Positions 3,704 through 45,514 of a DNA stretch of 64,000 bases are shown one piece after another (position 1 is the first letter of the stretch; each line of letters begins with the position of its first letter). The DNA comes from Verrucomicrobiota bacterium. GTDB taxonomy: Bacteria; Verrucomicrobiota; Verrucomicrobiia; Chthoniobacterales; SZAS-18. A program made the position numbers and the translations under genes. Location: the NCBI GenBank assembly GCA_019241085.1, contig JAFAXH010000118.1, positions 1-64,000 on the forward strand, in the 5' to 3' direction. The notes beneath the pieces were generated by a model. The model searched no databases. It was not told where the DNA came from and saw only the letters and a program-made list of their open reading frames with translations.

Positions 3704-4743
3704 ATGAACGAATCCTCCGTTTCCGCTGCCGCCGCCGCTGCGACTCCCCCCGCCTTGGCCGACCGTTTGCGCGGCGCAATCTGGGGTCAATTTGTCGGCG
3801 ACGCCTTTTGCCTCGGCACGCACTGGATTTACGATCTCGACGCGCTGGCGCGACAGTTTCCCAACGACGTGCAGGGCTTCGAGCCGCCCGCGCTGGGTCA
3901 TTACCACGCCCCGAAGGAGCCGGGGCAGCAGACGCATTACGGCGACGCGGCGCTCGTGTTGCTGGAAGCTGTCGCCGCCTGCGGCCGCCTGGACGTGGCC
4001 GATTTCGGGCGGCGGTTCGTGGAGCATTTCGGGTCGGCGGATTACACCGGTTATCGTGACAATACGATCCGCGGCACTTTGAAAAATTTTCAGGCTGCCG
4101 CCGACGCGCGCCCCGGCGAACCGTTTGATTTCCAACGCGGCGCCGACGATGCGGAGCCGGCCACAGCCGCGCGGCTGGCGTCGGTGGTCGTCGCCCACGG
4201 TGCGCTGTCCGACGCCGAATTGCTCGCGCTCGTGGCAAGCTACACGAAGGTCACCCAGAACAATGCGCTCGCCATCGCTTTCCTGCAGGCCGACGCGCTG
4301 GCGCTGCGCGATTTGCTCGCCGGCGATGCGCCGCGCGGCGCGTTCGCACGCGGTGCCGAGACGATTTATTTGCTCAACAAAAAATCGCGCGAGGGCAAGC
4401 AGGTCCACGAATTGATCGCCGCCGCGCTGGCGAACGTGGACCGCAGCGTGCACTACGTCACGACCGAGCTGTTTGGCCAGGCGTGCCCGCTGGAGCATTC
4501 GTTCCCCGCGGCGGTGCATTGCACCTTGCGGCACGCCGCCTCGTTTTCCGAAGCCATGCGCGAGAACGCCCGCGCCGGCGGCGACAACGCGGGCCGCGCC
4601 GCGATGATCGGCGGCTGGCTCGGCGCGCACCTCGGCGTCGGCGCCATCCCGGCCGCTTGGCGCGAACGGCTCCAGGCCAGGGCACGCATCGAGGCAGCCG
4701 TGGAAAAACTCGTCGCCGCAACGACCAGCGCCGCGGCGCATTC

Positions 4744-4747
<4 letters not shown>
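3704..4747 (+). CDS. ADP-ribosylglycohydrolase family protein, J1-crystallin-like branch
   Basis: The 347-residue protein has the all-helical ADP-ribosylglycohydrolase fold, recognised from GAIWGQFVGDAFCLGTHWIY near the N-terminus, DNTIRGTLKNF in the middle and GGDNAGRAAMIGGWLGA near the C-terminus. Typical hydrolases carry a T-D-D-T metal motif early and D-A-D-T late. Here these positions read THYGDAA and GGDNAGRA, which resembles the J1-crystallin/selenoprotein J branch, so classical dinuclear magnesium hydrolase activity is uncertain. The ATG at 3704 lies 24 bp after the pyrophosphatase stop. Its own stop overlaps the next gene in an ATGA arrangement, which suggests translational coupling. 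Removal of ADP-ribose from proteins or small molecules is the family role; the substrate here is unknown. Confidence 0.85.
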
Positions 4748-5213
<466 letters not shown>

Positions 5214-5217
<4 letters not shown>

Positions 5218-6344
5218 GCCTCGACGGAAGCGGCGTCCGCGTCGGGATTGCCAAAGAGCCGCCGGCCGCCGCCGGTCTCCGCTGCGAGTGTTTTCAACTC
5301 CGCCAACTCCGCTTCCAGCTTCTTCATTTTCTCGAGCAATTTCGGCAGCCGCCGCACGTTGACAAGATTCGCCCGCGCCTGCTGGATCGGCTCGCCGATC
5401 ATGCCAAAGAGCACGCTGTCCGGCGGCACGTCTTTGCTGGCGCCGCTCTTGGCGGCGATCACCGCGCGGTCGCCGATCTCGATGTGCCCGACGATTCCCG
5501 CCTGGCCGGCGAGCGTGACGTATTTGCCCAAGCGCGTGCTGCCGCTGACGCCGGCTTGCGCGACGATGAGGCAGTGCGGGCCGGTCGAGACATTGTGCGC
5601 GAGCATCACGAGGTTGTCGATCTTGGTGCCCTCGCCGATGTGCGTGTAGCCGAAGCGGGCGCGGTCAATCGTCGTGTTCGCGCCGATTTCCACATCGTCG
5701 TCGATCCGCACACCGCCGAGTTGCGGGATTTTAATGTGCCGCCCAGCGTGGAGTTGGAAGCCGAAACCGTCGCCGCCGATCACCGCGCCGGGCTGGATGA
5801 TGACGCGCCGGCCGAGGATCGTGCCTTCGCGCAAAACCACGCGCGGGTGCAATTGGCAATCCTCGCCGATGACGACGCCCTGGCCGACGAAGCAGCCGGC
5901 GCCGATGACCGTGCGGTCGCCGATCTCGGCGCCTGCCTCGATCACGGCTTGCGGCTGGATGGAAACCCCGGCGCCCAGCTTCACGTCGCGCCCGACCACG
6001 GCGCTCGGCGCGACGCCGGGCGCGTGCGAGGGAGCGGGCGGCGCAAATTTTTCCACCAGCTTTGAGAAAGCCAGCGTCGGATTTTCCACTTGGATCAACG
6101 TCGCCGCGCGCAACGGGTCATCTGCGGCCATGCCGGCCGTGTCGAAATCCACGGGCACCAGCACGACGCCGGCGCGCGTGCGCCTGAGCGCGGGCAGATA
6201 GCGCGCGTTGCCAAAGAATGCAGCGTCAGTCGGCGTCGCCTGCTCCAAGGAGTTCGCACCGGATATAGGACGTTCGGCGGGTCCGTGAAAAATCTCGCCG
6301 CCGACTAGCGCGGCGACCTCGGCAGCAGTCAAAGAAGGCATCAT
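5214..6344 (-). CDS. lpxD: UDP-3-O-acylglucosamine N-acyltransferase
   Basis: LpxD transfers a 3-hydroxyacyl chain from ACP to the 2-amino group of UDP-3-O-acylglucosamine, the third step of lipid A synthesis. From the ATG at 6344 (an ATG follows at 6341) the product has 376 residues. It has the N-terminal LpxD domain ([15 protein letters not shown]) and then a long left-handed beta helix of hexapeptide repeats (about residues 105-330). The catalytic histidine is probably His250 in [11 protein letters not shown]. An in-frame upstream ATG at 6407 would add 21 residues unlike the family and would run into the terminator region, so I prefer 6344. It belongs to the conserved bamA-skp-lpxD group, but a strong terminator separates it from skp, so it probably has its own promoter within 6345-6390. 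Confidence 0.95.
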
Positions 6345-6390
6345 GGGAAGACCAAAGCATAGCGCAAACCTTGACCGGCGGACAGCTTGC

Positions 6391-6424
6391 AAAAAAGAAG
6401 GACGCACCCAGCGCGGGTGCGTCC
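6391..6424 (-). terminator. Rho-independent terminator after skp
   Basis: On the minus strand the ten-base arm GGACGCACCC and its exact complement GGGTGCGTCC enclose a five-base loop and are followed at once by TTCTTTTTT. This is a textbook intrinsic terminator, 25 bases beyond the skp stop codon and before the lpxD start. Confidence 0.9.
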
Positions 6425-6449
6425 CTCTTGAGACTGGAGTTGATTCAAC

Positions 6450-7115
6450 TTATCGCCGCGGCGGAGCCACCGGCGCCGGGGTCGCGCCGCCGGCTGCGGG
6501 CGTCGGCGTCGCCGCCGTTTCAGCCGGCTTGTTGCGGTTGAGTTCCTTGATGACGACGTCGCTGAAATCCATGTTATCGCGGGCAAAAATGACGACGTTG
6601 ACGCCGTTCATGCTGTTGCCGCTGCGGTCGAAGATGAGGTCGAAATTCTCACTCTTCACCTTGTCGTTGACGACTTTCATGATGTCCTCAACCATCTGGT
6701 TGCGCAGCCGCACGATCTGCTCCTGAATCTGTTTTTCACGCGTCAGGCGGAAGTTCTCGATGTCGCGCTGCTGGCTCTGGTTTTCCGCGATGAGCGACTC
6801 GCGGCGCTTGCTCTTTTCCTCCTTGGCCGCCGGGCTGAGCGCCTTGTTGCTCTCCAGGTCTTTGTTGATCTGGGTGATCTCGTCGAGGCTCTTGCGGTAG
6901 CTGTCCATGCGCGAGTTAAACTCGGTCTGAGCCGCGGCTTTCTGCTCGTTGATCTTGGTTTCGGCGTCCTTCGTTTTGTAATAGTTGGAAAACACCTTGT
7001 TCATATCGACCGTGCCGATGCGGAGTTCGCCGTGCGCGGCGGGTGCCGCCGCAGCGGCAAACAGGGCGGTGCTGACGAGCAGGGCGGACAGGAACAAAAC
7101 GGGAGATTTCTTCAT
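6450..7115 (-). CDS. skp: OmpH/Skp family periplasmic chaperone
   Basis: The 221-residue product starts at the ATG at 7115 with a signal peptide (MKKSPVLFLSALLVSTALFA). It continues with ELRIGTVDMNKVFSNYYKT, the usual beginning of mature OmpH/Skp proteins. Residues about 45-150 are rich in Lys, Glu and Gln with heptad spacing and form the coiled-coil tentacles that hold unfolded outer membrane proteins. A conserved end domain (YDLIFDRSG-like: FDLIFDRSGNSMNGV) follows. The last 25 residues are a Pro/Ala/Thr tail not seen in the E. coli protein. It lies downstream of bamA, its usual partner, and ends at a strong terminator. An in-frame upstream ATG at 7280 would place the signal peptide internally and was rejected. 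Confidence 0.93.
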   Translation of the reverse strand: MKKSPVLFLSALLVSTALFAAAAAPAAHGELRIGTVDMNKVFSNYYKTKDAETKINEQKAAAQTEFNSRMDSYRKSLDEITQINKDLESNKALSPAAKEEKSKRRESLIAENQSQQRDIENFRLTREKQIQEQIVRLRNQMVEDIMKVVNDKVKSENFDLIFDRSGNSMNGVNVVIFARDNMDFSDVVIKELNRNKPAETAATPTPAAGGATPAPVAPPRR

Positions 7116-32839: not shown

Positions 32840-34585
32840 ATGACCGAAACTCCCCTCGCTTCGGACCACCACGCTACGGCGGCCACCCTGACTGCCGCGC
32901 CGGCAACCGGCGGCCGCGCGGAACTCGTCGCGCGCATGGTCGAGAGCCGTCAGCTCTCCGCCATGGATGCCACGGCGTTGGAAGAGTTGCCCGCGGGACC
33001 GGAGACCGAGGAGGAAATTTTGCAATGGCTGGCCGGCGAATACGGGCTGGCCTACACGGCGCTGGAAAACGTGGACCCGGATCGGGCGATTCTCGCGCGC
33101 TTTCCCGCCCGCATTTTGCTGCGCGAAGAAATGCTGCCTTTGCGGCAGGAAAATGGCCACGTCGAGGTCGCGCTCAGCCGGCTTTTCGCGGCGCCGGGTC
33201 TCGACAGTCTCAAGGCATTCACCGATCTCAAATTGCAACCCGTGCTGGCGCCCAGCGCGGCGTTGCAGCGGGAGATAAAAAAACATCTCGGCGTCGGCGC
33301 GGACACGCTGAACCTGCTCGAACAGGAGGAAGGCTTCCAAGTCCTCGCGGATGAACACCAAGACGAAGGCGATCTCGACAAGGCGGCGGAGGACGCGTCG
33401 ATCATCCGGTTCGTCAATCAAATCCTCGGCGACGCGGTCTCCATGCGCACGTCCGACATTCACGTCGAGCCGTTCGAGCACGAATTGCGCATCCGCTATC
33501 GCATCGACGGTTTGTTGCAGGAAGTGCCCGTGCCGGGTCAGATCAAGCGTTTCCAGCCGGCCATCGTTTCGCGCATCAAAATCCTGAGCAACCTCAACAT
33601 CGCCGAGAAGCGCGTGCCGCAGGACGGGCGCATCAAAATCCGCGTGAAAGGCAGCGATGTGGACATCCGTGTTTCCGTCATCCCGATGCTGCACGGCGAA
33701 GCGGTGGTCATGCGTTTGCTGCGGCAGGACGCGGGCCTCGTCGCGCTCGAAAAACTCGGCATGGATCGGCGCGACAGCGAGCATTTCAGCCGCGTGCTGG
33801 AGATGCCCCACGGCATCGCCCTCGTCACCGGCCCGACCGGCTCGGGCAAGACGACGACGCTCTACGCGGCGTTGAATCAGATCAATGATTCCGTGCGCAA
33901 GATCATCACCATCGAAGACCCGGTGGAATATCAGCTCCGCGGCATCAACCAAATCCAGGTGGCGGAAAAAGCGGGGCTGACGTTTGCGCGCGGGCTGCGC
34001 GCGATTTTGCGGCACGATCCAGATGTCGTGCTCATCGGTGAAATCCGCGATCAGGAAACCGCGCAGATCGCCGTGCAGGCGTCGCTGACGGGTCACATGG
34101 TTTTTTCCACCCTCCACACGAACGACGCGCCGGGCGCGCTCACGCGCCTCGTTGATATGGGCGTCGAGCCGTATCTCGTCGCTTCGTCGCTCGAAGCCGT
34201 GATGGCCCAGCGCCTCGTGCGCAAGCTTTGTCCATTGTGCAAAGAAGAAGACACGACGGTGCGCACCCGCCAGTTGCGCCAGCGCGTCCCAGCCATCGCG
34301 AACGCGACCCTCTATGGCGCCGTCGGCTGCCGCGAATGCCGCATGACCGGCTACACGGGCCGGCAGGCGTTGTTTGAATTGATGACCATGAGCCCGGCCA
34401 TCCGCGAGGTGCTCCTGCGCGGCGGATCGAGCCTGGAAGTGAAAGAGGTCGCGCGCCGCGAAGGGATGCGCACGTTGATCGAAGACGGCTGGCGGTTGGT
34501 GCGCGAAGGCATCACCACGCCGGCGGAAGTCTTGCGCGTGTCGAAGGACGAAGACGCGTCGTTCACGTTTGCGACCGAGGCATAA
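32840..34585 (+). CDS. gspE: Type II secretion ATPase GspE
   Basis: The 581-residue cytoplasmic ATPase drives pseudopilus assembly. The N-terminal GspE/PilB domain (TEEEILQWLAGEYGLAY) is followed by Walker A GPTGSGKTTT at about residues 331-340, the Asp box with EDPVEYQL, Walker B LIGEIRDQETA, the His box FSTLHTNDAPG and a C-x2-C zinc element (CPLC and CREC) near the C-terminus. All catalytic parts are intact. The ATG at 32840 is preferred to 32810, as the family start begins there. It heads a 12-gene operon running to 45514. No gene for the prepilin peptidase GspO is in the window. Confidence 0.95.
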   Translation: MTETPLASDHHATAATLTAAPATGGRAELVARMVESRQLSAMDATALEELPAGPETEEEILQWLAGEYGLAYTALENVDPDRAILARFPARILLREEMLPLRQENGHVEVALSRLFAAPGLDSLKAFTDLKLQPVLAPSAALQREIKKHLGVGADTLNLLEQEEGFQVLADEHQDEGDLDKAAEDASIIRFVNQILGDAVSMRTSDIHVEPFEHELRIRYRIDGLLQEVPVPGQIKRFQPAIVSRIKILSNLNIAEKRVPQDGRIKIRVKGSDVDIRVSVIPMLHGEAVVMRLLRQDAGLVALEKLGMDRRDSEHFSRVLEMPHGIALVTGPTGSGKTTTLYAALNQINDSVRKIITIEDPVEYQLRGINQIQVAEKAGLTFARGLRAILRHDPDVVLIGEIRDQETAQIAVQASLTGHMVFSTLHTNDAPGALTRLVDMGVEPYLVASSLEAVMAQRLVRKLCPLCKEEDTTVRTRQLRQRVPAIANATLYGAVGCRECRMTGYTGRQALFELMTMSPAIREVLLRGGSSLEVKEVARREGMRTLIEDGWRLVREGITTPAEVLRVSKDEDASFTFATEA

Positions 34586-34600
34586 TGTTGTCGAAAAGCC

Positions 34601-35878
34601 ATGCCCGTTTTTGAATACAGAGCCGTTGGCCCCAACGGTGCGATCATGCAAGGCAAGCTCGATGCCGAGGGCCGCGGCGACGCGTTGCGCATCGTCGAAG
34701 AGCGCGGGCTGAAGCCGTTGAAGTTGACGGAAAAAAACGCCGCTCCGGCCAAAGCCGCCGCGCGCAGCACGGCAGGCGAAGGCAGCGGCAGCGGCTTGAA
34801 GCTGCCGCCCGCGCTCGCGGGGTTGAAGCTCGGGGCGAAAAAAGTCAATCACGCGGCGCTCGAAGATTTCACCCGCTCGCTCGCCAGCCTGCTCGCGGCG
34901 AACGTGCCGCTGAGCCGCGCGCTGACGATTCTTTACAAGGAATCCTCCAATCCCGCCGCGTCGGTGAAGTGGAAGGAACTCCACGATTTCGTGGTCGATG
35001 GCGTGCCGCTGGCCGAAGCGATGAGCCGTTCGCCCGACGTGTTTCCGCGCGTTTACATCGCGATGGTCGAGGCGGGCGAGGCGGGCGGCTTTTTGGATGT
35101 CGTGCTCGAGCCGGTCGACGATTTTCAGGCGCGGGAAAAAGAGCTACGCGCCAAGGTCATCGCGGCGCTGATGTATCCGGCAGTGTTGCTCTTTCTCGCC
35201 GTCGCGGTCGTGATTTTTCTGCTCGTCTTTTTCATCCCGCGTTTTCAGACGTTATTCGAGGGCTTCGACGCCGCGCTGCCGGCGCTGACGCAGATCATCG
35301 TGGCCACGAGCAACTTTGTGCGGCACTACGGTATCTTCCTGGCCGTCGGCGTCGCGGCGGCGATTTACTTCGGGCGCGCGTGGCTGCGGCAGGACAGCAG
35401 CCGGCGATTGTGGGAGAATTTTTTGCTCAAAACTCCCGTCATCGGGCCGCTCATGGCGCAGATCGCGATGGCGCGTTTTTGCCGGATGCTCGGCACCTTG
35501 CTCGGCGCGGGCGTGTCGCTCATCACCGCGCTCGATGTCGGCCGGCGCTCGCTCGGTTATCAAACGCTGGTCGATCTCGTGGCCAACGCGACCGAACGGG
35601 TGAAAAAAGGCGAGCCGCTCGCCGCGAGCCTCGCCGACAGCCGCGCGTTGTTTGGCGGTTCGACGCTCGAAATGATCTCGGTCGCCGAGGAAAGCGGCCG
35701 GCTCGATCAAGAGCTGGTGCGTCTCGCCGGCGTCACGGAAGTCACGCTCGATCGGCAGTTGAAAACCGCCGTGTCGCTGGCCGAGCCGATCATGCTTTTC
35801 GTCATCGCCGGTTTCATTGGTTTGATCTTTATCGGCATGGTCATCCCGATCTTCACCATCCAGGACTATATTAAGTAA
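34601..35878 (+). CDS. gspF: Type II secretion inner membrane protein GspF
   Basis: The 425-residue protein is the polytopic platform of the secretion machine. It has two repeats of the GspF domain (FTRSLASLLAANVPLSRALT from about residue 86 and FCRMLGTLLGAGVSLITALD from about 290) and membrane helices at about 185-210, 240-260 and 395-420. The 15-residue gap to GspE and the same strand fit one transcript. It ends at an AT-rich palindromic region before gspG. Confidence 0.94.
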   Translation: MPVFEYRAVGPNGAIMQGKLDAEGRGDALRIVEERGLKPLKLTEKNAAPAKAAARSTAGEGSGSGLKLPPALAGLKLGAKKVNHAALEDFTRSLASLLAANVPLSRALTILYKESSNPAASVKWKELHDFVVDGVPLAEAMSRSPDVFPRVYIAMVEAGEAGGFLDVVLEPVDDFQAREKELRAKVIAALMYPAVLLFLAVAVVIFLLVFFIPRFQTLFEGFDAALPALTQIIVATSNFVRHYGIFLAVGVAAAIYFGRAWLRQDSSRRLWENFLLKTPVIGPLMAQIAMARFCRMLGTLLGAGVSLITALDVGRRSLGYQTLVDLVANATERVKKGEPLAASLADSRALFGGSTLEMISVAEESGRLDQELVRLAGVTEVTLDRQLKTAVSLAEPIMLFVIAGFIGLIFIGMVIPIFTIQDYIK

Positions 35879-35929
35879 CTCAGTAACTCTTGAAGTAACC
35901 CCACCACTCAACATCTATCTCCGCTCTCC

Positions 35930-36036
35930 GCAGCTTAATCGTAATCCTGATCTTAATCCTTCTGCGCTCGCCGCGCGTGGCTCAAACTCTTGCCTCCGGC
36001 GGCAGAGACTATGATTAGGATTAAGACTATGATTAA
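35930..36036. repeat. Imperfect palindrome built of TTAATC/GATTAAG units
   Basis: Between gspF and gspG a left arm (CTTAATCGTAATCC, then CTTAATCC) faces a right arm (GATTAGGATTAAGACTATG, then ATTAAG). About 40 bp of GC-rich sequence separate the arms. It may attenuate transcription within the operon; no gene is visible in 35879-36066. Confidence 0.7.
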
Positions 36037-36066
36037 GCCATCGAAAGAACGGAGAAGCCAAGCTCT

Positions 36067-36516
36067 ATGAAACCATCCATCCACCTCAAACAGAAACAGC
36101 ATCATCGCACAGCAGCCTTCACGCTCGTCGAAATGCTCCTTGTCCTCGTCATCCTCGCCACGCTGGCGGCCATCGTCATTCCCAAGATGGCCGGTCGCAG
36201 TCAGCAGGCGAAAGTGACCGCCGCGCAGTCGCAAATCTCCAGCATCGAACTGGCGCTCGACGCGTTTGAAGTGGACAACGGCTACTACCCGAAAAGTGGC
36301 AATCTCGGCGATCTACTCGATCAGCCCGCCGGCGCGCCGAATTGGAAGGGGCCTTACCTTAAAAAAGGCATTCCGCTTGATCCGTGGGGCAACGCTTATG
36401 TCTATGAATATCCCGGCAAGCATCACACCAACGGCTACGACCTGATGTCGCCGGGACCGGACGGCCGCGCGGGCACCGACGACGACATCACCAACTGGGA
36501 GTCAGGCCGGAAATAA
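36067..36516 (+). CDS. gspG: Major pseudopilin GspG
   Basis: The 149-residue pseudopilin polymerises into the piston of the type II system. After 17 leader residues it has FTLVEMLLVLVILATLAAIV, with Glu at position +5 of the mature protein (Glu22). The pre-cleavage residue is Ala17, not the usual Gly. The C-terminal calcium-binding loop region reads DGRAGTDDDITNWESG, and DPWGNAYVYEYPGKH is the conserved GspG block. Length is normal. It is followed by four minor pseudopilins. Confidence 0.95.
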   Translation: MKPSIHLKQKQHHRTAAFTLVEMLLVLVILATLAAIVIPKMAGRSQQAKVTAAQSQISSIELALDAFEVDNGYYPKSGNLGDLLDQPAGAPNWKGPYLKKGIPLDPWGNAYVYEYPGKHHTNGYDLMSPGPDGRAGTDDDITNWESGRK

Positions 36517-36525
36517 TAAAGAGCA

Positions 36526-37044
36526 TTGACCGCCCGACGGCCATCTTCTTCTTCTTGCAAGTCGTTTGCGTTCACGCTGGTCGAGTTGATCCTCGTCATG
36601 GCTTTGCTCGCCACGATCCTCGCGTTGGCCGCGCCTTCCTTGTCCCGCTCGTTGCACCAGCGCAACTTGGAACAAGAGGCCGCGCGCTTGCTGGCGTTGA
36701 CGGAATACGGCCGGGATGAAGCCGTGTCGCAAGGCGTGCCGATGGTCATCTGGGTGGATCCGGAGAGCCGGCGGTTCGGAGTGAAAGCGAAGGCTGGTTT
36801 TACGGACGACAGCCGGCGCGAAAAGGAATACGCGCTGAACGCCGATCTCCACTTCGAGCCGATGACCGGCACGATCACGAAAGACCGCGTCGTGAACGCC
36901 GCCGAGTTCGCGCCCGACGGCACGCTCGATCCCGCCAGCGCGGCGTCCGTGCGCATCGGGGATCGCTTCAAGTCCACTGTCACCTTGGCGCGCACGACCG
37001 ACGGCTGGGGTTACGAAATCGTGAAGGAGGGGACGACGCGGTGA
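36526..37044 (+). CDS. gspH: Minor pseudopilin GspH-like
   Basis: The protein of 172 residues has a prepilin leader of 15 residues ending in Ala15, then FTLVELILVMALLATILALA with Glu20 at +5. The start must be the TTG at 36526: no ATG or GTG precedes the leader, and the next ATG lies inside the membrane helix. The globular part (MVIWVDPESRRFGVKAKAG) fits a minor pseudopilin of the GspH type. The gap to gspG is 9 bp. Low similarity in the C-terminal half makes the H assignment rest on position in the operon. Confidence 0.82.
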   Translation: MTARRPSSSSCKSFAFTLVELILVMALLATILALAAPSLSRSLHQRNLEQEAARLLALTEYGRDEAVSQGVPMVIWVDPESRRFGVKAKAGFTDDSRREKEYALNADLHFEPMTGTITKDRVVNAAEFAPDGTLDPASAASVRIGDRFKSTVTLARTTDGWGYEIVKEGTTR

Positions 37045-37478
37045 TGATGCAGCAACGGCATCATTTTTCGCGCGGCGGCTTCACGTTCGTGGAAGTCCTC
37101 GCGGCGTTGTTTTTCCTCGCGCTCGTCGTGCCGGCGATGCTCGGCGGGCTGACCATCGCCAACCGCGCTGCGTCGATGTCGGAGCGTCGTGCGGCGGCGG
37201 GCGAGCTGGCCGAGAACAAGCTGAACGAGTTGCTCCTCGAAACCGCGGACAACGCGTCGAGCGCGGCGGCCACGCGCGGCGACTTCGGCGCGGACCGTCC
37301 GGGCTACCGCTGGGAAATGAGTTCGGCCTCGTGGGACGCGGATGCGACGAACAAGATGACCGTGCTGACGGTGGAGGTTTTCTTCAAGGTGCAGGGACGC
37401 GAATACAGCGTGCAGCTCAGTTCGCTGCTCAATCCCGCCAGCGGCGGCACGCAAAGCGGTTCGGGGACATTGCCATGA
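37044..37478 (+). CDS. gspI: Minor pseudopilin GspI-like
   Basis: The 144-residue protein begins at the ATG at 37044, overlapping the gspH stop by one base (TGATG); a GTG at 37041 would add one residue. The cleavage site is Gly12/Phe13 with FTFVEVLAALFFLALVVPAM and Glu17 at +5. The rest (AENKLNELLLETADN) has the GspI/PilV-type helix followed by a beta-rich C-terminal part. It is coupled to gspJ through an ATGA overlap. Confidence 0.85.
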   Translation: MMQQRHHFSRGGFTFVEVLAALFFLALVVPAMLGGLTIANRAASMSERRAAAGELAENKLNELLLETADNASSAAATRGDFGADRPGYRWEMSSASWDADATNKMTVLTVEVFFKVQGREYSVQLSSLLNPASGGTQSGSGTLP

Positions 37479-38323
37479 AAATCACCACGTCCCGGCTTTC
37501 ATTCTCCCGCGTGGCTGCTCGCCGCCGCCGATGCGGATTTACCTTGTTGGAAATCCTGCTGGCTTCCTTCGCCGCCGCGATGATCCTCGTGGCGATCTAC
37601 GGAATTTTTTATCGCGCCCTCAAGCTGCGCGACAACGCCACGCAGCGCACGCACGAAGCGCGGTTGCAAGCGCGCGCGGCGAAGGTCATCCGCAACGACC
37701 TGCGCAACGCGCTCGTCTCGGGCGGCCTGCTCGCGTCCACGTTGATGGGCAGCAGCACCGGCAGCGACGGCCCCAGCACGGGCTTTCCGGGTTATCTGAA
37801 AATCACCGCCACGACGGGCCGGGATGTGCCCGACCAGTATTACGGCGACGTGCAGCAGGTGGAATATTACATCGTTCGGGACAACAACTCCGCCGGCTCG
37901 CTCAACGCCGGCACGCTCGTCCGCGCGATCAACCGCGACCTGCTCTCCTCGGTGCAGCAGAATGCGACGGAGGAGCAAATTTTAACCGGCGTCCGCTCGC
38001 TGCAAGTCTCCTTCTACGACGGCTCGAACTGGCAGCCGAGCTGGCAATATACCAGCCCGACGACTGGTGGCAGCAGCAGCAGCGGCAGTTCGACGAGCAG
38101 CAGCACCTCGTCAGGGAACAGCACGGCGGCGCAAAATTTGCCGGAGGCCATCCGCATCGACATCGAGCAGCTCCCGCCCGCGCCGCCGTTGGAAATCCTC
38201 GTGCCCTGGCCGACGCAGCCTTTTGCGGCGGCGACCGCGGCTCCATCCACGCCGCCGTCTTCAGCCACCGCCACGCCAACTCCCCGGCCCACTCCCACGC
38301 CGGCGGCTCCTGCGACCCGATGA
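37475..38323 (+). CDS. gspJ: Minor pseudopilin GspJ-like
   Basis: The 282-residue protein starts at the ATG overlapping the gspI stop. The leader ends with Gly21, then FTLLEILLASFAAAMILVAI with Glu26 at +5. The globular domain (VIRNDLRNALVSGG, IRIDIEQLPPA) resembles GspJ. It has two low-complexity insertions: a Ser/Gly/Thr stretch near residue 205 and a Pro/Thr/Ala tail of about 30 residues, so it is longer than usual (about 200). Confidence 0.85.
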   Translation: MKITTSRLSFSRVAARRRRCGFTLLEILLASFAAAMILVAIYGIFYRALKLRDNATQRTHEARLQARAAKVIRNDLRNALVSGGLLASTLMGSSTGSDGPSTGFPGYLKITATTGRDVPDQYYGDVQQVEYYIVRDNNSAGSLNAGTLVRAINRDLLSSVQQNATEEQILTGVRSLQVSFYDGSNWQPSWQYTSPTTGGSSSSGSSTSSSTSSGNSTAAQNLPEAIRIDIEQLPPAPPLEILVPWPTQPFAAATAAPSTPPSSATATPTPRPTPTPAAPATR

Positions 38324-39645
38324 ACGCGCCGTTTCGCATTCCACGTCATCGCCAGCGCCGGGCAGCGCGCGCGTCGTCCACGCGCGGCGCAGTCCTGATT
38401 GTCGTGCTCGTGATCTGCCTCGGGCTGGTCAGCCTCACGCTGGCGTTTGGCCACGCGATGTTGCTGAACTATCGCGGCGTGGACAACGAACTCGCCGGCC
38501 GCCAGGCCGACCTCGCCATCGAGGGTGCCGCGCGCTACGCCGAGGCGTTGATGTCCAACGCGACCCATCCCGGCGACTTCCCCGACCACGCGAGTTATCA
38601 GAGTAGCGCCGTGCCTGTGGGCGAGGCCAGCTTTTGGTTCATCGGCAAACCCTCCTCCACCGATCCGCAGGACCAGCCTTATTTCGGTCTCGTGGACGAA
38701 GCGTCGAAGCTCAATCTCAACACCGCCAGCCAGACGATGCTGCTCAATCTGCCCGGCATGACGCAGGACCTCGCCGCGGCCATCGTCGCCTGGCGCAAGT
38801 CGCCGAGCAATGCCACGAACACGCTGATGATGTCCGGCGCGACGGCGGTGAAATACGCGCCGTTTGAATCCGTGGAAGAACTGGCCTTGGTGAACGGCGG
38901 CACCGATCCGGGCATTCTCTACGGCGACGACGCCAACCTGAACCACGTCTCCGATCCGCAGGAACTCAGCGGCGGGCTGGGCCAGTTCAATCCAGGGCTT
39001 TTTGAATACGTCACCGTTTTCAGCCGCGAGCCGAACACGCTCAGCGACGGGACGAAGCGGACGAACGTCACCGGCAACGTGGGCGCGCTGGGGTCGTTGC
39101 TGAACACGCAACTCGGCGCCGCGCGCGCCCGCGAGGTCGAGGCGCGCCTGCGCGGCGGCGGCATCCGCAGCGTGCTGGAATTTTATCTGCGCAGCGGACT
39201 GACGGCGGATGAATTTGATAAAGTCACACCGTATCTCACGATGCAAAACGGCCCTTACAGCGTTGGCTTGATCAACGTGAACACCGCGGGCGAGACCGTG
39301 CTGGCGTGCGTGCCCGGCATTGGTCCCGACAACGCGCAAAAGATCGTCGCCGCGCGCACGCAGCAGGCGCAGGCTTCCACGAACCTCGCGTGGGTCGCGA
39401 CGATCCTCGGCCGTCAGGCCGCCATCACGGCGGGACCGTATCTCACGACGCAAAGTTACCAGGTCAGCGCGGATGTCGCCGCGGTCGGGCGGCACGGACG
39501 CGGCTACCGGCGCACGCGGTTCGTCATCGACGCCAGCGCCGGCACGCCGCAGATCGTTTATCGCCGCAACCTCGCCGCCCTCGGCTGGGCGCTGGGCGAT
39601 AGCGTGCGGCAGACTTTGGCGAACAAGAAAGGAGCGACGCCATGA
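38320..39645 (+). CDS. gspK: Type II secretion minor pseudopilin GspK
   Basis: The 441-residue protein overlaps the gspJ stop (ATGA). Its leader ends in Gly23 before AVLIVVLVICLGLVSLTLAF; Glu at +5 is missing, as is usual in GspK, which caps the pseudopilus tip. Two helix-hairpin-helix segments follow: DEASKLNLNTASQTMLLNLP with AAAIVAWR and LINVNTAGETVLACVPGIG. Length and motifs fit the family. It overlaps gspL. Confidence 0.9.
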   Translation: MNAPFRIPRHRQRRAARASSTRGAVLIVVLVICLGLVSLTLAFGHAMLLNYRGVDNELAGRQADLAIEGAARYAEALMSNATHPGDFPDHASYQSSAVPVGEASFWFIGKPSSTDPQDQPYFGLVDEASKLNLNTASQTMLLNLPGMTQDLAAAIVAWRKSPSNATNTLMMSGATAVKYAPFESVEELALVNGGTDPGILYGDDANLNHVSDPQELSGGLGQFNPGLFEYVTVFSREPNTLSDGTKRTNVTGNVGALGSLLNTQLGAARAREVEARLRGGGIRSVLEFYLRSGLTADEFDKVTPYLTMQNGPYSVGLINVNTAGETVLACVPGIGPDNAQKIVAARTQQAQASTNLAWVATILGRQAAITAGPYLTTQSYQVSADVAAVGRHGRGYRRTRFVIDASAGTPQIVYRRNLAALGWALGDSVRQTLANKKGATP

Positions 39646-41108
39646 AGCTGCCCGACGCGGCCGAACTGCGCAAAAAGCTGGAAACCTCCGAGCTGGCAAA
39701 ACGGCTGCAAACGCGCTCCGTGCTGGCGTTGACCATCGAGTCGGACTGCCTGCTCGCCAGCGTCGTGCGGCGGGTGGAAAATACGGTCAGCGTGGCCGCC
39801 GGTCCGCTCGCCGTGCCGGTCGGCGCGGAGGAGATTTTACGCGATCCGGAGAAGGCTGGCCGCGTGCTGGCGGAGTCGCTCGACTCGGCGGGCTGGCGCG
39901 AGCGGCGTTGCGTGGTCGCCGTGCCACCGGGCTGGGCGCTCACGGCCTCGACCGAGTTGCTCGAAGTTTCGCCGGAGGATTTGCGCGGCTACCTGGAATT
40001 GCGCGCCGAGCGTGAGTTTCCCATCCCGGTGGCTGACCTGCGCCTCGCGCACAGCGCCTACCAACTGGCGGATGGCAAGCCGCGCGCCACGCTGGCCGCG
40101 GTGCCCGCCAAACGGCTGGACGCCGTCACGGCGCTGCTGGCCGTCGCCGGTCGCCGCGCCGTGTCGATCTCGCTGGCGCTGGATCATTGTTTTACCCAAC
40201 CGACCGAGGCAGCGTTGCACTTCCTCGCGAACGGCAATCTCCACACCGATGTCGTCGTCACCGCGGGCGGCGGCGTGGTGGCGTTGCGCTCGCTTTCGCA
40301 CAACGCTGGCACGCCTGCGGGCGAGGACACCACCGCCGCCGCGTTCGATCCAGCCGGTTTTTGCCGGGAAGTCCGCATCACCCTCGGCCGGCTGCCGACC
40401 GGCGTGCAGGCTGAGGTGCGGCAGGCGCACTTCGGCGGAGCGACGGCGGCGGCGCAACGGCTGCTCGAACAAACGCGCGCGCCGTTGCAAAAAATGGGCA
40501 TCGAGGCCGTCGGCGACCGCGGGCTTCCCGACGACACCGATGCTGGTGCTGGCGCCGCGGCGGAGACCGCTGGGCGCGTGTTGCGCAAGGCGCCGGTGCC
40601 CTTTGAATTTGTCGTGCCGGAGCCGAAGAAGTGGGAGCCTGTGCTCCAGCGGCTCAACACCAAACGGCGGCGCTGGATGGCGGCTGCCGTGGCCGGGTGC
40701 ATCCTGCTCCCGGTGCTGATTTTCTTCGTCCGTTCGCGGATGGAAAGTTCCTACACGCGCGAGTGGGAAGGCATGCGCAACAAGGTCGCGGACCTGGATG
40801 TTTTACAATCAAAAATCCGCCAGTTCCGCCCGTGGTTCGAGCCGGCGCCGCAGAATTTGCAGGTGCTCGACGGCCTCATCTCGGCCTTCCCGGAACAAGG
40901 CGATGTCTGGGCCAAGAGCATCCAGATCGGCGCCGGCTACAAAGTCACCTGCACCGGCTTCGCGCGGAACCAACCCGCGTGGCTGGGCCTGCTCGACCGC
41001 CTGCGCGGCCGGCCGGACATCACGGCGCTGACCGTGCAGCAGGTGCGCGGAGATAATCCGCTCCAGTTTTCCTTCACTTACAAATGGGAGCCACGCCATG
41101 AAAAGTAG
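39642..41108 (+). CDS. gspL: GspL-like assembly protein (PilM/PilN-like domains)
   Basis: The 488-residue protein has an actin-like N-terminal domain (VLALTIESDCLLASVVRRVE to LEVSPEDLRGYLELRAEREF), a second subdomain, one membrane helix at about residue 346-366 (WMAAAVAGCILLPVLIFFV) and a C-terminal periplasmic ferredoxin-like part similar to PilN. This is the architecture of GspL, which links the ATPase to the pseudopilus. It overlaps both neighbours: 4 bases with gspK and 11 bases with gspM, which signals tight coupling. Confidence 0.85.
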   Translation: MKLPDAAELRKKLETSELAKRLQTRSVLALTIESDCLLASVVRRVENTVSVAAGPLAVPVGAEEILRDPEKAGRVLAESLDSAGWRERRCVVAVPPGWALTASTELLEVSPEDLRGYLELRAEREFPIPVADLRLAHSAYQLADGKPRATLAAVPAKRLDAVTALLAVAGRRAVSISLALDHCFTQPTEAALHFLANGNLHTDVVVTAGGGVVALRSLSHNAGTPAGEDTTAAAFDPAGFCREVRITLGRLPTGVQAEVRQAHFGGATAAAQRLLEQTRAPLQKMGIEAVGDRGLPDDTDAGAGAAAETAGRVLRKAPVPFEFVVPEPKKWEPVLQRLNTKRRRWMAAAVAGCILLPVLIFFVRSRMESSYTREWEGMRNKVADLDVLQSKIRQFRPWFEPAPQNLQVLDGLISAFPEQGDVWAKSIQIGAGYKVTCTGFARNQPAWLGLLDRLRGRPDITALTVQQVRGDNPLQFSFTYKWEPRHEK

Positions 41109-41646
41109 CGACCGACTGATGTTTCTAAAAATCGGCGCCGCGGCCGTCGTCGGGTTGTTCCTGCTCGACAAGATCGTGCTTTCCCCGGCGATTGCCAGTT
41201 GGAACGACCAGAGCGAGCGCATCGACGCGTTGCGCAAAAAAGTCGAGCGTGGCCGGCAACTCGTGCAGCGCGAAGACGCCATCCGGCAGCGCTGGGCGGA
41301 GATGCTGCACGCGAACCTGCCGGCGGACATGTCGGCGGCGGAGAGTGACGCGTTCAAGGCGCTTAGCCGCTGGGTGCGCGACAGCGGCGTGGCACTGACG
41401 AGCCTGACGCCGCAGTGGCAGACGCACGAGGAAGGCTACGAATCGTTCGAATGCCGCGCCGCCGCCACGGGCGATCAGGTTTCGCTGGGCCGGTTCATTT
41501 ACGAATTGGAAGTGGACCCGATGCCGGTGAGCCTGGAGGAGTGCGAGATCACGACGCGCGACGCGCGCGGGGCGCAGCTCAACATGACGGCACGCTTCAG
41601 CTTCGTTCGCCTGACGACGGAAGGAGGCCGGAGCAGCCGCCGATGA
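41098..41646 (+). CDS. gspM: GspM-like assembly protein
   Basis: The 182-residue protein has one N-terminal membrane helix (FLKIGAAAVVGLFLLDKIVL), a short coiled coil (DALRKKVERGRQLVQREDAIR) and a C-terminal ferredoxin-like domain (FIYELEVDPMPVSLEECEIT), the layout of GspM/PilO proteins that pair with GspL in the inner membrane. It overlaps gspL by 11 bases and the following gene by 4 bases. Confidence 0.8.
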   Translation: MKSSDRLMFLKIGAAAVVGLFLLDKIVLSPAIASWNDQSERIDALRKKVERGRQLVQREDAIRQRWAEMLHANLPADMSAAESDAFKALSRWVRDSGVALTSLTPQWQTHEEGYESFECRAAATGDQVSLGRFIYELEVDPMPVSLEECEITTRDARGAQLNMTARFSFVRLTTEGGRSSRR

Positions 41647-42281
41647 AACGCTTTTTTTCCCCGCTCCTGCTGCTCGCCGCGTGGCTGCTCGGCTGCGTCG
41701 CCTTTCTCCACGAGGCCGCGGCGCAACAATCGTCGCCGACGCCGGCGCCCGTGCCGCGCCAGGGCCAGGGCTACGAGGCGTTCCGCATGGTGCGGACCCG
41801 CAACGTCTTCGACCCCGAACGCAAGGCGCTGCCGCCGCAAAATGGCGCCCGCCAGGCGACCACGCCCGCGCCGACGCGCGGCGATTACGTCGCGCTCACG
41901 GGCACGATGGTGACGCCGGATAAAGCGCTCGCCTTTTTCTCCGGTTCAAGGCCAGACTACAACAAGGTGCTGCCGCCCCAGGAGCGCATCGTGGGCGCGA
42001 CGATCCTCAAAGTCACGCCGACGGACATCGAAGTAGAACGTGACGGCAAGCGCTTCACCGTCGCCGTCGGCCAGACCGTGCCTTTGGATAATGCCTCCGC
42101 GCCCGCGGCTGCTCCCGCGCCCGCGGCCGGCGACGCCAGCAGCACCCCGGATGCCGCCTCAGCCGCGGCAGCACCGCCGCCGTCGGGTGTGAACACTGCA
42201 CCAGCCAATAATCCTCCCCCCGCCAACAAAGACGAAGTCCTCCGCCGCTTGATGGAAAGACGCCAACAGGAACTCAAATGA
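41643..42281 (+). CDS. GspC/PilP-like periplasmic protein with HR-type domain
   Basis: The 212-residue protein begins MKRFFSPLLLLAAWLLGC. The last four residues (Leu15-Leu16-Gly17-Cys18) form a lipobox, so it may be a lipoprotein like PilP and unlike the membrane-anchored GspC. A conserved beta domain follows: ALTGTMVTPDKALAFFSG, PQERIVGATILKVTPTDIEV and RDGKRFTVAVGQTV. This matches the homology region of GspC/PilP that binds the first secretin domain. The last 70 residues are Ala/Pro-rich. It lies between gspM and the secretin genes, exactly where the inner membrane complex must contact the outer channel. Confidence 0.72.
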   Translation: MKRFFSPLLLLAAWLLGCVAFLHEAAAQQSSPTPAPVPRQGQGYEAFRMVRTRNVFDPERKALPPQNGARQATTPAPTRGDYVALTGTMVTPDKALAFFSGSRPDYNKVLPPQERIVGATILKVTPTDIEVERDGKRFTVAVGQTVPLDNASAPAAAPAPAAGDASSTPDAASAAAAPPPSGVNTAPANNPPPANKDEVLRRLMERRQQELK

Positions 42282-44083
42282 AAACCTCGCGCCCCTGCTC
42301 GATGAACTCTCTCAGCCTCTGCTCCGCGCTGCTGCTCCTGCTGCTGCTGCCCACCTGGGCCAGCGCGCAAACCGACGAGCAGCCGCCGATGATGCCGCCC
42401 GGTGAAGCCGCCTACCCGGACACGCTGCCGCCGGTCATCAACGCACAGGAACAACAAATGCCCGCGCCCGAGCAGGCAGCGGCGTCGCCGAGTGCCGATG
42501 CGTCGCCCAGCGCCGTCGCTTCGCCGAGCGCCGCCGCTTCGCCGGCGGCGACGCCCCTCGCGCGTGACGGGAATCGCGCGGCGCGGAGAAATCTCGCGCA
42601 ACAATTGCCTACGACGGCGACGACCACCACGACCACCACGACAACTGCCGCCCCCGCGCCAGCGGATGTGGCGGCTTCCGCGCCGTTGCCCCAACCTGAT
42701 GCGGCGGACAAAAAAGACATCCGCCTCAATTTCCAAGGCGCCGCGCTTTCCGAGGTGCTGAATTATCTCAGCTCCGCCGCCGGTTTCATCATTCTCCAGG
42801 AAACGCCCGTGACGGGCACGGTCAACGTCGTCAGCCGCCAGCCGATCAACGCCGAGGAAGCCGTCGATTTGCTGAACGCGGTGCTCAACGAGAAAGGCTA
42901 CATCGCCATCCGCAACGGCCGGATTTTGAAAATCGTCAGCCGGCAGGACGCCGAGAAGCGTGATCTGCCGGTCGTCACGGGCAGCGATCCCGACAAAATC
43001 CCACGGCGCGATTCGATGGTGACGCAAATCCTGCCGGTGCGTTACGTCGAGGTCGCCAAGCTGGTGGACAATCTGCGGCCGCTGCTCTCGCCGCGGGCGT
43101 CGATCAGCTCGAATGCCAACAGCAACGCGATCCTGCTCACCGACACGCAGGCGAACATTCACCGCGTCGCCGAGATCATCCGCGCGCTGGATACTTCCAT
43201 TTCCAAAATCTCGGTGATCCACGTTTTCGGCTTGCACTACGCGGACGCGAAGGCGCTGGCCGACGTGTTGACGGAGCTGTTTGCGCCGCCGCAACGACAG
43301 GGAAATCAGCCGCAGCAGGGACCGGGAGGCTTCCCGGGATTCCCCGGCTTCGGCGGCGGCCAGGGACGCAACGCCGTCGCGGGCGGCACCTTGACGCCGG
43401 AGAGCGAGGCGCGGCAGGCGGCGTCGCGCGTGGTGGCGGTGCCGGACGCGCAGAGCAACTCGGTCATCGTCAGCGCGCCGGATGAATACATGGACACGAT
43501 CACCGAGGTCGTGAACCGGCTCGACACGAGCATCAGCGACATCACGGAGACGCGCATCTTCGCGTTGCGCTTTGCCGATGCCACCGAGCTGGCCGGCCTC
43601 GTGACGACGCTCTACGCGGACAACGCGACGACGGCCAGTCAGCAGAACGGGCCGCAGCAGGGAGGGCGCAACCCATTCTTCCAGCAACAAAATCAGCGGC
43701 AACAAAACCAAGCGCCCAGCGCGCGCACGCTCTTGCAGTCACGCGTCGCCGCGGTGGCGGACCCGCGCACGAACGCCATCATTGTCAGCGCCTCGCACGC
43801 AACGATGGACCAGATCGCCCAAACCATCGCGCGGCTGGACGCGACCGACGTGAAAAAGCAGCGGGTGCAGGTGCACACGCTGGCGCACGCGGACCCGGAC
43901 AACGTGGCGGTGATCTTGCGCGGCATGTTTGGCGTCGATACGAGCACGACCGGCACGGCGCAGCAGCCTTCCACCAGCCGCTTGACGAACCGCACGCAGA
44001 ACGGTGCTTCGAGCGACATCTCCAGCACGCTGAACAGCAACAGCAGCTCCAACGGCCGGTCGTCGGGCGCGGGACTGCGCTAA
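42278..44083 (+). CDS. gspD: Secretin N-domain protein (N-terminal half of a split GspD)
   Basis: The 601-residue protein has a signal peptide (MKTSRPCSMNSLSLCSALLL, cleavage near ASA-QTD), a Pro/Ala/Ser/Thr linker, then four to five secretin N-domains: IRLNFQGAALSEVLNYLSS (about 145-220), ILPVRYVEVAKLVDNLRPLL (about 247-310), HVFGLHYADAKALADVLTEL (about 315-410) and IFALRFADATELAGLVTTLY (about 420-525). A last beta-alpha unit (VHTLAHADPDNVAVILRGMF) begins a fifth domain and then runs into a Ser/Asn tail and stops. The membrane pore domain of GspD is absent from this polypeptide and is encoded by the next gene. Gly/Gln-rich loops interrupt the third and fourth domains. Confidence 0.85.
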   Translation: MKTSRPCSMNSLSLCSALLLLLLLPTWASAQTDEQPPMMPPGEAAYPDTLPPVINAQEQQMPAPEQAAASPSADASPSAVASPSAAASPAATPLARDGNRAARRNLAQQLPTTATTTTTTTTTAAPAPADVAASAPLPQPDAADKKDIRLNFQGAALSEVLNYLSSAAGFIILQETPVTGTVNVVSRQPINAEEAVDLLNAVLNEKGYIAIRNGRILKIVSRQDAEKRDLPVVTGSDPDKIPRRDSMVTQILPVRYVEVAKLVDNLRPLLSPRASISSNANSNAILLTDTQANIHRVAEIIRALDTSISKISVIHVFGLHYADAKALADVLTELFAPPQRQGNQPQQGPGGFPGFPGFGGGQGRNAVAGGTLTPESEARQAASRVVAVPDAQSNSVIVSAPDEYMDTITEVVNRLDTSISDITETRIFALRFADATELAGLVTTLYADNATTASQQNGPQQGGRNPFFQQQNQRQQNQAPSARTLLQSRVAAVADPRTNAIIVSASHATMDQIAQTIARLDATDVKKQRVQVHTLAHADPDNVAVILRGMFGVDTSTTGTAQQPSTSRLTNRTQNGASSDISSTLNSNSSSNGRSSGAGLR

Positions 44084-44119
44084 CTCCGCCGCGCGACGCC
44101 GTTTTTCCTTCTTCGTTTT

Positions 44120-45514
44120 ATGATGATGAGCCGTTTCCCGCTTCGTTTCGCGCTGGGTTCGCTTTGCGCTTCCGCTGTCTGGCTGCCGCTGGTTTCGGTG
44201 CTGGCGCAGACGAGCATCCGTCCGACGACCACCACGCGACCGACCACGCAGAACGCCACCACCGGGGCGGGCCGCTCGACGACGGGCGGAGGTTCCTCGT
44301 CGAATGCCAGCTCGGCCTCGGCGACGCGCCAGTATCGCAACAACACGATGCTCGGCGACGCGTTGATCCAGGTCGATCCCGAGACGCGCTCGCTCGTCAT
44401 CGTGGCGGATGAACGCACGCAGGCCGAGATCGCCAAGGTCATCCACAACCTGGATCGGCCCAAGCCGCAGGTGCTCATCAAAGTGCTCTTCGCGCAGGTG
44501 ACCTTGGACAACTCGACCGACTTTGGCGTCGAGGGCAGCTACCAGTTCAACGTCGGCCAGCCGCCGCTGACGCAGTTGTTGAACTCGGCCACCGGCGGCA
44601 CGACGACCACGGCGCCGTCGCAGACGACCACGACCACGACCACGACGCCCACGGCCAACGGCGGCTCGCGGCAAGTGGTCACCACGGCGACCCAGGGATT
44701 CAACCCCGCCACCACGGGCACCGCCGGCCCTTCCACGGCGTTTGGCCTGGCCAACCAGACGACCGGCGGTTTTTTCAAACTCAACACTTACAACGCCACC
44801 GCGACGCTCTATGCCCTGGCACAACGCGGCAAGGTCAAGGTGCTCTCGCGGCCTTCCATCCTGGCGCGCAACAATCAGGAAGCCGTGATGGTCGTCGGCC
44901 AGGAAGTGCCATTCATCACCAACAGCCAGATCACCGAAAACGGGCAGACGATCAACACGATCCAATACCAGGACGTCGGCATCATCCTGCGCGTCACGCC
45001 GTTCATTACTTCCAAGAAAACGGTCGAGATGATCGTCTCGCCGGAAATCTCGTCGCTCTCCAGCCAGACGGTGCCGATCTCGCCGACGGTGAACGCGCCG
45101 TTGATTAACAAAACGTCCGCGGAAACCGTGGTCGTCACGCCCGACGCCACGACGGTCGTCATCGGCGGCATGATGCAGAAGCAGGAGACATCGACGGTGA
45201 ACAAAGTCCCCTTGCTCGGCGACATCCCGGTGCTCGGCTACGCCTTCCGGCACACGGTCAAGAGCGACACCAAGACCGAGCTGTTGATCTTCCTGACGCC
45301 TTACATCGTCGAAGGCACCGACAAGCTGGAAGACCTCAGCGTGGACCAGATGAATCGCACCGATCTGCCGCAGAATTTGACGGAAAGGGAGATGAACAAA
45401 TACTTGGACAACACGCTGGAACTCATCCCGCCGCCCGCCCCGAAACAACCGAGCACGACGATAACGACCACGCGCCGCACGACCACCACGACCACCAAGA
45501 ATAACGGGAAATAA
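44120..45514 (+). CDS. gspD: Secretin pore-domain protein (C-terminal half of a split GspD)
   Basis: The 464-residue protein has its own signal peptide (MMMSRFPLRFALGSLCASAV, cleavage near VLA-QTS) and a Thr/Ser-rich linker. It resumes in the middle of the last N-domain (QVDPETRSLVIVADERTQAE) and continues with the secretin barrel: VLIKVLFAQVTLDNSTDFGV, VKVLSRPSILARNNQEAVMV, VGQEVPFITNSQ, RVTPFITSKKTVEMIVSPE and VVIGGMMQKQETSTVNKVPL, the secretin signature. It is the outer membrane channel of the type II system. Thr-rich tracts arise from ACC/ACG repeats. The gene starts 36 bp after the previous stop in the same frame, so fission is by one TAA plus a new signal peptide. Confidence 0.9.
   Translation: MMMSRFPLRFALGSLCASAVWLPLVSVLAQTSIRPTTTTRPTTQNATTGAGRSTTGGGSSSNASSASATRQYRNNTMLGDALIQVDPETRSLVIVADERTQAEIAKVIHNLDRPKPQVLIKVLFAQVTLDNSTDFGVEGSYQFNVGQPPLTQLLNSATGGTTTTAPSQTTTTTTTTPTANGGSRQVVTTATQGFNPATTGTAGPSTAFGLANQTTGGFFKLNTYNATATLYALAQRGKVKVLSRPSILARNNQEAVMVVGQEVPFITNSQITENGQTINTIQYQDVGIILRVTPFITSKKTVEMIVSPEISSLSSQTVPISPTVNAPLINKTSAETVVVTPDATTVVIGGMMQKQETSTVNKVPLLGDIPVLGYAFRHTVKSDTKTELLIFLTPYIVEGTDKLEDLSVDQMNRTDLPQNLTEREMNKYLDNTLELIPPPAPKQPSTTITTTRRTTTTTTKNNGK

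Follow-up and report, generated by a model that had tools for sequence, protein, structure and literature searches.

Secretins are regarded as single chains spanning the distance between the inner-membrane side and the outer-membrane pore. Canonical GspD of the T2SS (PulD, XcpQ, EpsD; PDB 5WQ7, 5WQ9, 6HCG) is one chain with an N0 domain, Secretin_N domains and the secretin pore. Within it N3 is structurally grouped with the pore, with a flexible joint between N2 and N3 (PMC5646246), and constriction sites in the channel are formed by N3 (PMC6882859). In the open-access PMC literature, split secretins were found only in the T3SS: in rhizobia and in P. syringae T3SS-2, RhcC1 and RhcC2 (PMC3973906, PMC3574062) come from separate genes for the N-terminal part and the pore, which lie apart within the T3SS locus, and in B. 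elkanii there are even three ORFs. RhcC2, which has a BON domain, derives from a Tad locus, and RhcC1 is the remnant of an older secretin (PMC3459982); the pair thus has two origins, with no fission inside a domain. For the T2SS, no split secretin was found described in that literature.

The window, meaning the whole analysed stretch of 64,000 nucleotides from a Verrucomicrobiota draft genome (170 contigs, 86.9% complete), holds a T2SS operon that, unlike those encoding the canonical single chain, ends in two adjacent secretin genes, gspD1 and gspD2. ORF and Pfam analysis upheld the sequence-only reading of 42278-44083 (601 aa) and 44120-45514 (464 aa) as separate genes for a secretin N-part and pore, and the TAA, the 36 bp gap and the 614-codon offset between the starts that it had described were all confirmed. 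The features are as follows:

32840, plus strand: gspE (Pfam match above cut-off)
34601, plus strand: gspF (Pfam match above cut-off)
36067, plus strand: gspG (Pfam match above cut-off)
36526, plus strand: gspH (Pfam match above cut-off)
37041, plus strand: gspI (weak Pfam match)
37475, plus strand: gspJ (Pfam match above cut-off)
38320, plus strand: gspK (Pfam match above cut-off)
39642-41108, plus strand: gspL-like gene (by position; a related gene precedes the split pair in 55 of 63 loci)
41098-41646, plus strand: gspM-like gene (by position; a related gene precedes the split pair in 55 of 63 loci)
41643..42281, plus strand: gspC-like gene directly upstream of gspD1 (by position and sequence reading, with no family match)
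42278..44083, plus strand: gspD1, 601 aa (ORF, Pfam and NCBIfam)
43853..43933, plus strand: first half of the split N-domain, in the last part of gspD1, KKQRVQVHTLAHADPDNVAVILRGMFG (match to profile positions 4-57 of 102; 5WQ9 alignment)
44084..44119, plus strand: intergenic gap between gspD1 and gspD2, 36 bp
44120..45514, plus strand: gspD2, 464 aa (ORF, Pfam and NCBIfam)
44120..44209, plus strand: predicted signal peptide of gspD2, MMMSRFPLRFALGSLCASAVWLPLVSVLAQ (hydrophobic N-terminus, common to relatives)
44360..44467, plus strand: second half of the split N-domain in gspD2, ALIQVDPETRSLVIVADERTQAEIAKVIHNLDRPKP (Pfam, relatives and GspD alignment)
44813..45313, plus strand: secretin pore domain, PF00263 (Pfam)

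Upstream of the gspC-like gene the operon spans 32840..41646 in the same direction, running from E to M and then to C, D1 and D2; the genes at the gspL and gspM positions gave no Pfam match at all. Surroundings were compared for about 60 relatives, and of 63 related loci 53-55 have genes related to gspK, gspL, gspM and gspC upstream of the pair (53 for the gspC-like gene) within the 6 kb compared, a distance that leaves gspE to gspI mostly outside. The conserved order is gspK-L-M-C-D1-D2, closed by the two secretin genes.

GspD1 consists of a signal peptide, a low-complexity linker, an N0 domain (type_II_gspD_N0, PF21305, residues 150-219, 44.7 bits against a cut-off of 27), three complete Secretin_N domains (PF03958, E 1.8e-39) and the first half of a fourth, a beta-alpha half-domain followed by a G/S/N/T-rich tail and a TAA stop codon. 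GspD2 has its own signal peptide, a G/S/T-rich linker, the second half of the split domain and the secretin pore (PF00263, residues 232-398, E 9.6e-49). Its residues 83-117 match the Secretin_N model (69 positions) only from position 35 to 69, in agreement with the earlier proposal that the break lies inside the last N-domain, and the rest of the split domain, between the G/S/T-rich stretch and the pore, is RQYRNNTMLGDALIQVDPETRSLVIVADERTQAEIAKVIHNLDRPKP. The earlier assignment of a signal peptide to each protein also stands, both N-termini reading in this way from their sequence (..PTWASAQ in GspD1, ..VSVLAQ in GspD2).

With N0, three N-domains and the split one, the pair has one N-domain more than canonical GspD. 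Because the number is canonical in 16 of 59 relatives, the split domain is taken to be the equivalent of N3, and alignment with the solved GspD chains 5WQ7 and 5WQ9 pairs the end of GspD1 with the first half of N3 and the start of GspD2 with the second half. By these alignments the break lies in a loop inside N3. The flexible joint described between N2 and N3 (PMC5646246) makes that junction the natural place for a cut; here the chain is cut inside N3 instead.

Both proteins find their best NCBIfam family in TIGR02517 (type_II_gspD), the separate halves scoring 212.5 and 251.4 bits and not reaching the single-chain cut-off of 351.35. PilQ, MshL and Amuc_1098-type secretins, which have a homologous pore and N-domains, gave lower scores than GspD for both parts. 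Fused GspD proteins of the phylum, including one of 866 aa in the window genome (G000:C144), share N0, N-domains and pore with the pair, but they are single chains, their pores are about 30% identical, and they fall outside the clade of split secretins. A plasmid search returned matches that were all below 60% identity, the best (about 29%) being to ordinary gspD. The window genome contains three more secretin genes, in G000:C144 (L039), G000:C98 (L040) and G000:C117 (L041): the 866-aa fused GspD, a gene truncated at a contig edge and one of 933 aa.

The published explanation of RhcC1 and RhcC2 is partial gene replacement (PMC3459982), and an N gene and a pore gene drawn from different secretins, as in the rhizobial T3SS, could in principle produce a similar arrangement. 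We regard this origin as very unlikely for gspD1 and gspD2, because gspD1 encodes one half of a domain and gspD2 its complement, the genes are neighbours in collinear order, and both are best matched by GspD; moreover, GspD2 has no BON match. Compared with the T3SS precedent, GspD1/GspD2 belongs to another machine and arose by another route, in which one gene was split within a domain.

To establish how far the split extends, genomes of Verrucomicrobiota were scanned; most members of the split clade are metagenome (draft) assemblies. A Spartobacteria MAG of this phylum (JAJPII010000047.1, L035) encodes the same pair, 64% and 68% identical and separated by 15 bp, and two genomes of the same family (L036 and L037) both have a separate pore gene, the L036 contig ending at the start of that gene so that the N gene region is outside it. 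A profile of four pores, searched against genomes of the order, a sample of the class and further classes of the phylum, detected orthologs in 12 of the 213 genomes from the order and matches in 65 of the 384 sampled from the class, a few of the latter being giant secretins (described below); orthologs were also present in the further classes. Against the split-pore profile, 66 of 172 distinct secretin ORFs scored 435-567 bits and the next best at most 299. All 66 orthologous pore ORFs, which are spread over 32 families, carry only the second half of one N-domain. As the sequence-only reading had proposed looking for in genomes of the same class, the neighbouring N gene was found directly upstream of the pore gene wherever the contig reaches that far, the intergenic distance lying between -40 and +70 bp in 54 of 59 loci (median 31 bp). 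Long ORFs that resembled fused secretins (e.g. L131, 942 aa) were rejected, as they represent another frame open across the N gene.

In a tree of 170 pore regions, where rows were marked as split by pore score and architecture was checked separately through ORFs and upstream N genes, the split rows occupy one side of one branch (SH-aLRT 100), corresponding to one change, and no fused member lies within the split-pore clade. A single clade with this support and without a fused member indicates that gspD was split once, long ago. On these sequence comparisons the split was probably one ancient event in an ancestor common to many Verrucomicrobiota. As an observation apart, the secretins of five loci (L213-L217, in genomes G399, G263, G504, G256 and G385) are fused and GspD-like, measure 914-1115 aa, contain four to six N-domains and group as one clade; a split pair is present as well in four of the five genomes.

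The distribution bears directly on the possibility that a recent nonsense mutation, a pseudogene or an assembly error divides gspD in the window genome, as might be imagined for a draft assembly in which the two genes share one frame. Every ortholog is split in the same way and has the second signal peptide, and both parts are 61-68% identical to those of near relatives, leaving this explanation a vanishingly small probability. A single uninterrupted gspD in the closest relatives had earlier been named as a result that would overturn the two-gene reading; no intact gene was found at the locus in close relatives, and a pseudogene was rejected accordingly. The argument that a second signal peptide speaks against simple mutation held up as well, since that peptide is kept in orthologs at 61-68% amino-acid identity.

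The shared frame also invites the suggestion that programmed stop-codon readthrough or a frameshift yields one fused GspD. The gspD2 ATG lies 1842 bases (614 codons) past the gspD1 ATG. Here, and likewise in the two closest relatives whose contigs include both genes, the pair is in one frame and no further stop codon intervenes. However, frame offsets of 0, 1 and 2 occur in 20, 20 and 19 of the 59 loci, the stop codons are 30 TAA, 22 TGA and 7 TAG, and a fused product would place a signal peptide within the N3 domain. Random offsets and the use of all three stop codons rule out readthrough as a general mechanism, and the shared frame is due to chance; we consider a fused GspD made in this way extremely improbable. 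The earlier observation of same-frame halves is therefore true of the window and carries no information about the system.

Searched with a profile of N-domains, all 59 N proteins end in a partial N-domain match that starts at positions 2-5 of 102 and stops at 40-63. Across 57 loci the first half of the split domain has a mean pairwise identity of 46%, compared with 53, 46 and 54% for the first halves of intact domains (intact N2 being equal to it at 46%), and the second half has 58%, compared with 54, 51 and 55%, making it the best conserved of the second halves. The pore has 59% in the same loci and the flanking tail of the N protein only 27%. Since both halves are conserved about as well as the halves of uncut N-domains, the data fit assembly across the break. 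A signal-like hydrophobic N-terminal stretch was present in 61 of 61 pore proteins versus 14% of control windows in the same proteins, a comparison in which the start codons of relatives were chosen by a heuristic favouring hydrophobic N-termini (the 61 of 61 is thus partly by design) and the controls were fixed windows; a plausible cleavage motif followed in 59 of 61. AlphaFold2 runs on two-row alignments, with L035 as the only partner, gave mean pLDDT values of 29.5 and 44.7 for the two chains, too low for the models to be used.

We read the two genes, with the signal peptides seen in their sequence, the position of the cut, its single origin, the conserved halves and the operon around them, as a real T2SS secretin, GspD1 plus GspD2, derived from one ancient split of gspD and completed by pairing of the half-domains between chains, and put the probability of this reading at about 77%. 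Each protein would be exported through its own Sec-type signal peptide. GspD1 would supply the periplasmic vestibule (N0, N1 and N2, with an additional N-domain in this protein) and the beta-alpha half of the N3 equivalent, and GspD2 the remainder of that domain and the pore. Many copies of both may then assemble at the outer membrane, where pairing of the half-domains would restore a composite N3 ring under the pore, in the periplasm, to give a complex active in secretion. With the chain cut in mid-domain, the ring under the pore is probably pieced together from separate chains.

It is also conceivable that a minimal pore is built from GspD2 only and that GspD1, as a periplasmic ring of its own or as an adaptor, docks to this pore with the split domain left incomplete. 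Such an arrangement would suit the bipartite build of solved secretins, in which an N0-N1-N2 unit is apart from N3 and the pore (PMC5646246), the proposed role of RhcC1 as a linker between RhcC2 and SctD (PMC3459982) and the G/S-rich tails that flank the break. However, the break falls inside N3 rather than between N2 and N3, and both halves are kept in all 59 loci and conserved like those of intact domains, although docking alone needs neither. Because the half-domains would be unnecessary, docking without domain completion is the weaker account and we judge it unlikely.

Five genomes from three families (L113, L243, L244, L245 and L247) carry the secretin in three pieces. At the L113 locus (G515, 3930-6789) the genes are:

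3930-4742: piece 1, with signal peptide, N0, N1 and the first half of N2
4764-5585: piece 2, with signal peptide, the second half of N2, another N-domain and the first half of N3
from 5620: pore gene

The same three-gene order occurs in L243 (G786), L244 (G787), L245 (G801) and L247 (G789), and every piece has a signal peptide-like start. N2 is cut at the same loop as N3. On the tree the three-piece state requires three changes, at least two of them forced by well-supported branches, and repeated cutting at the same loop would, on the sequences, be a simpler reading than gains followed by later re-fusion. That one helix-to-strand loop is used again, that neither half-domain is lost and that every piece has a signal peptide fits separate export and mutual domain completion by the chains. 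We lean towards the view that secretin N-domains can be split repeatedly at the loop joining their first helix to their second strand, and that a cut there together with a signal peptide may give working multi-chain secretins, every divided domain being re-formed from two chains; two chains would have arisen by one ancient event and three by at least two later ones, leaving vestibule and pore as separately made modules joined at the N3 ring.

A further group of secretins in the phylum departs from the usual form by its length. Seven giant secretins (L149:3008-14857, minus strand; L148:1990-14415; L226, L227, L228, L229 and L230) are single ORFs of 2928-4142 aa in which many Secretin_N domains precede the C-terminal secretin pore; 32 and 36 Secretin_N stretches were matched by Pfam in the two examined, and one of 3950 aa begins with a signal peptide. 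They form one clade (SH-aLRT 99), score next below the split pores, and one search of the literature found no description of them. Were every N-domain to form a ring, these proteins would have an extremely long vestibule.

For the organisms concerned, full-length GspD cut-offs in annotation can miss or misname the T2SS in many Verrucomicrobiota. A clade whose chain is cut in the ring domain beside the pore suggests that chain continuity is dispensable in a secretin, and it offers a natural two-part (and three-part) system for vestibule and pore assembly, for N3 ring formation and for the separate making or changing of the parts. If the loop is indeed a repeatable fission point, vestibule and pore may possibly be assembled or released separately.
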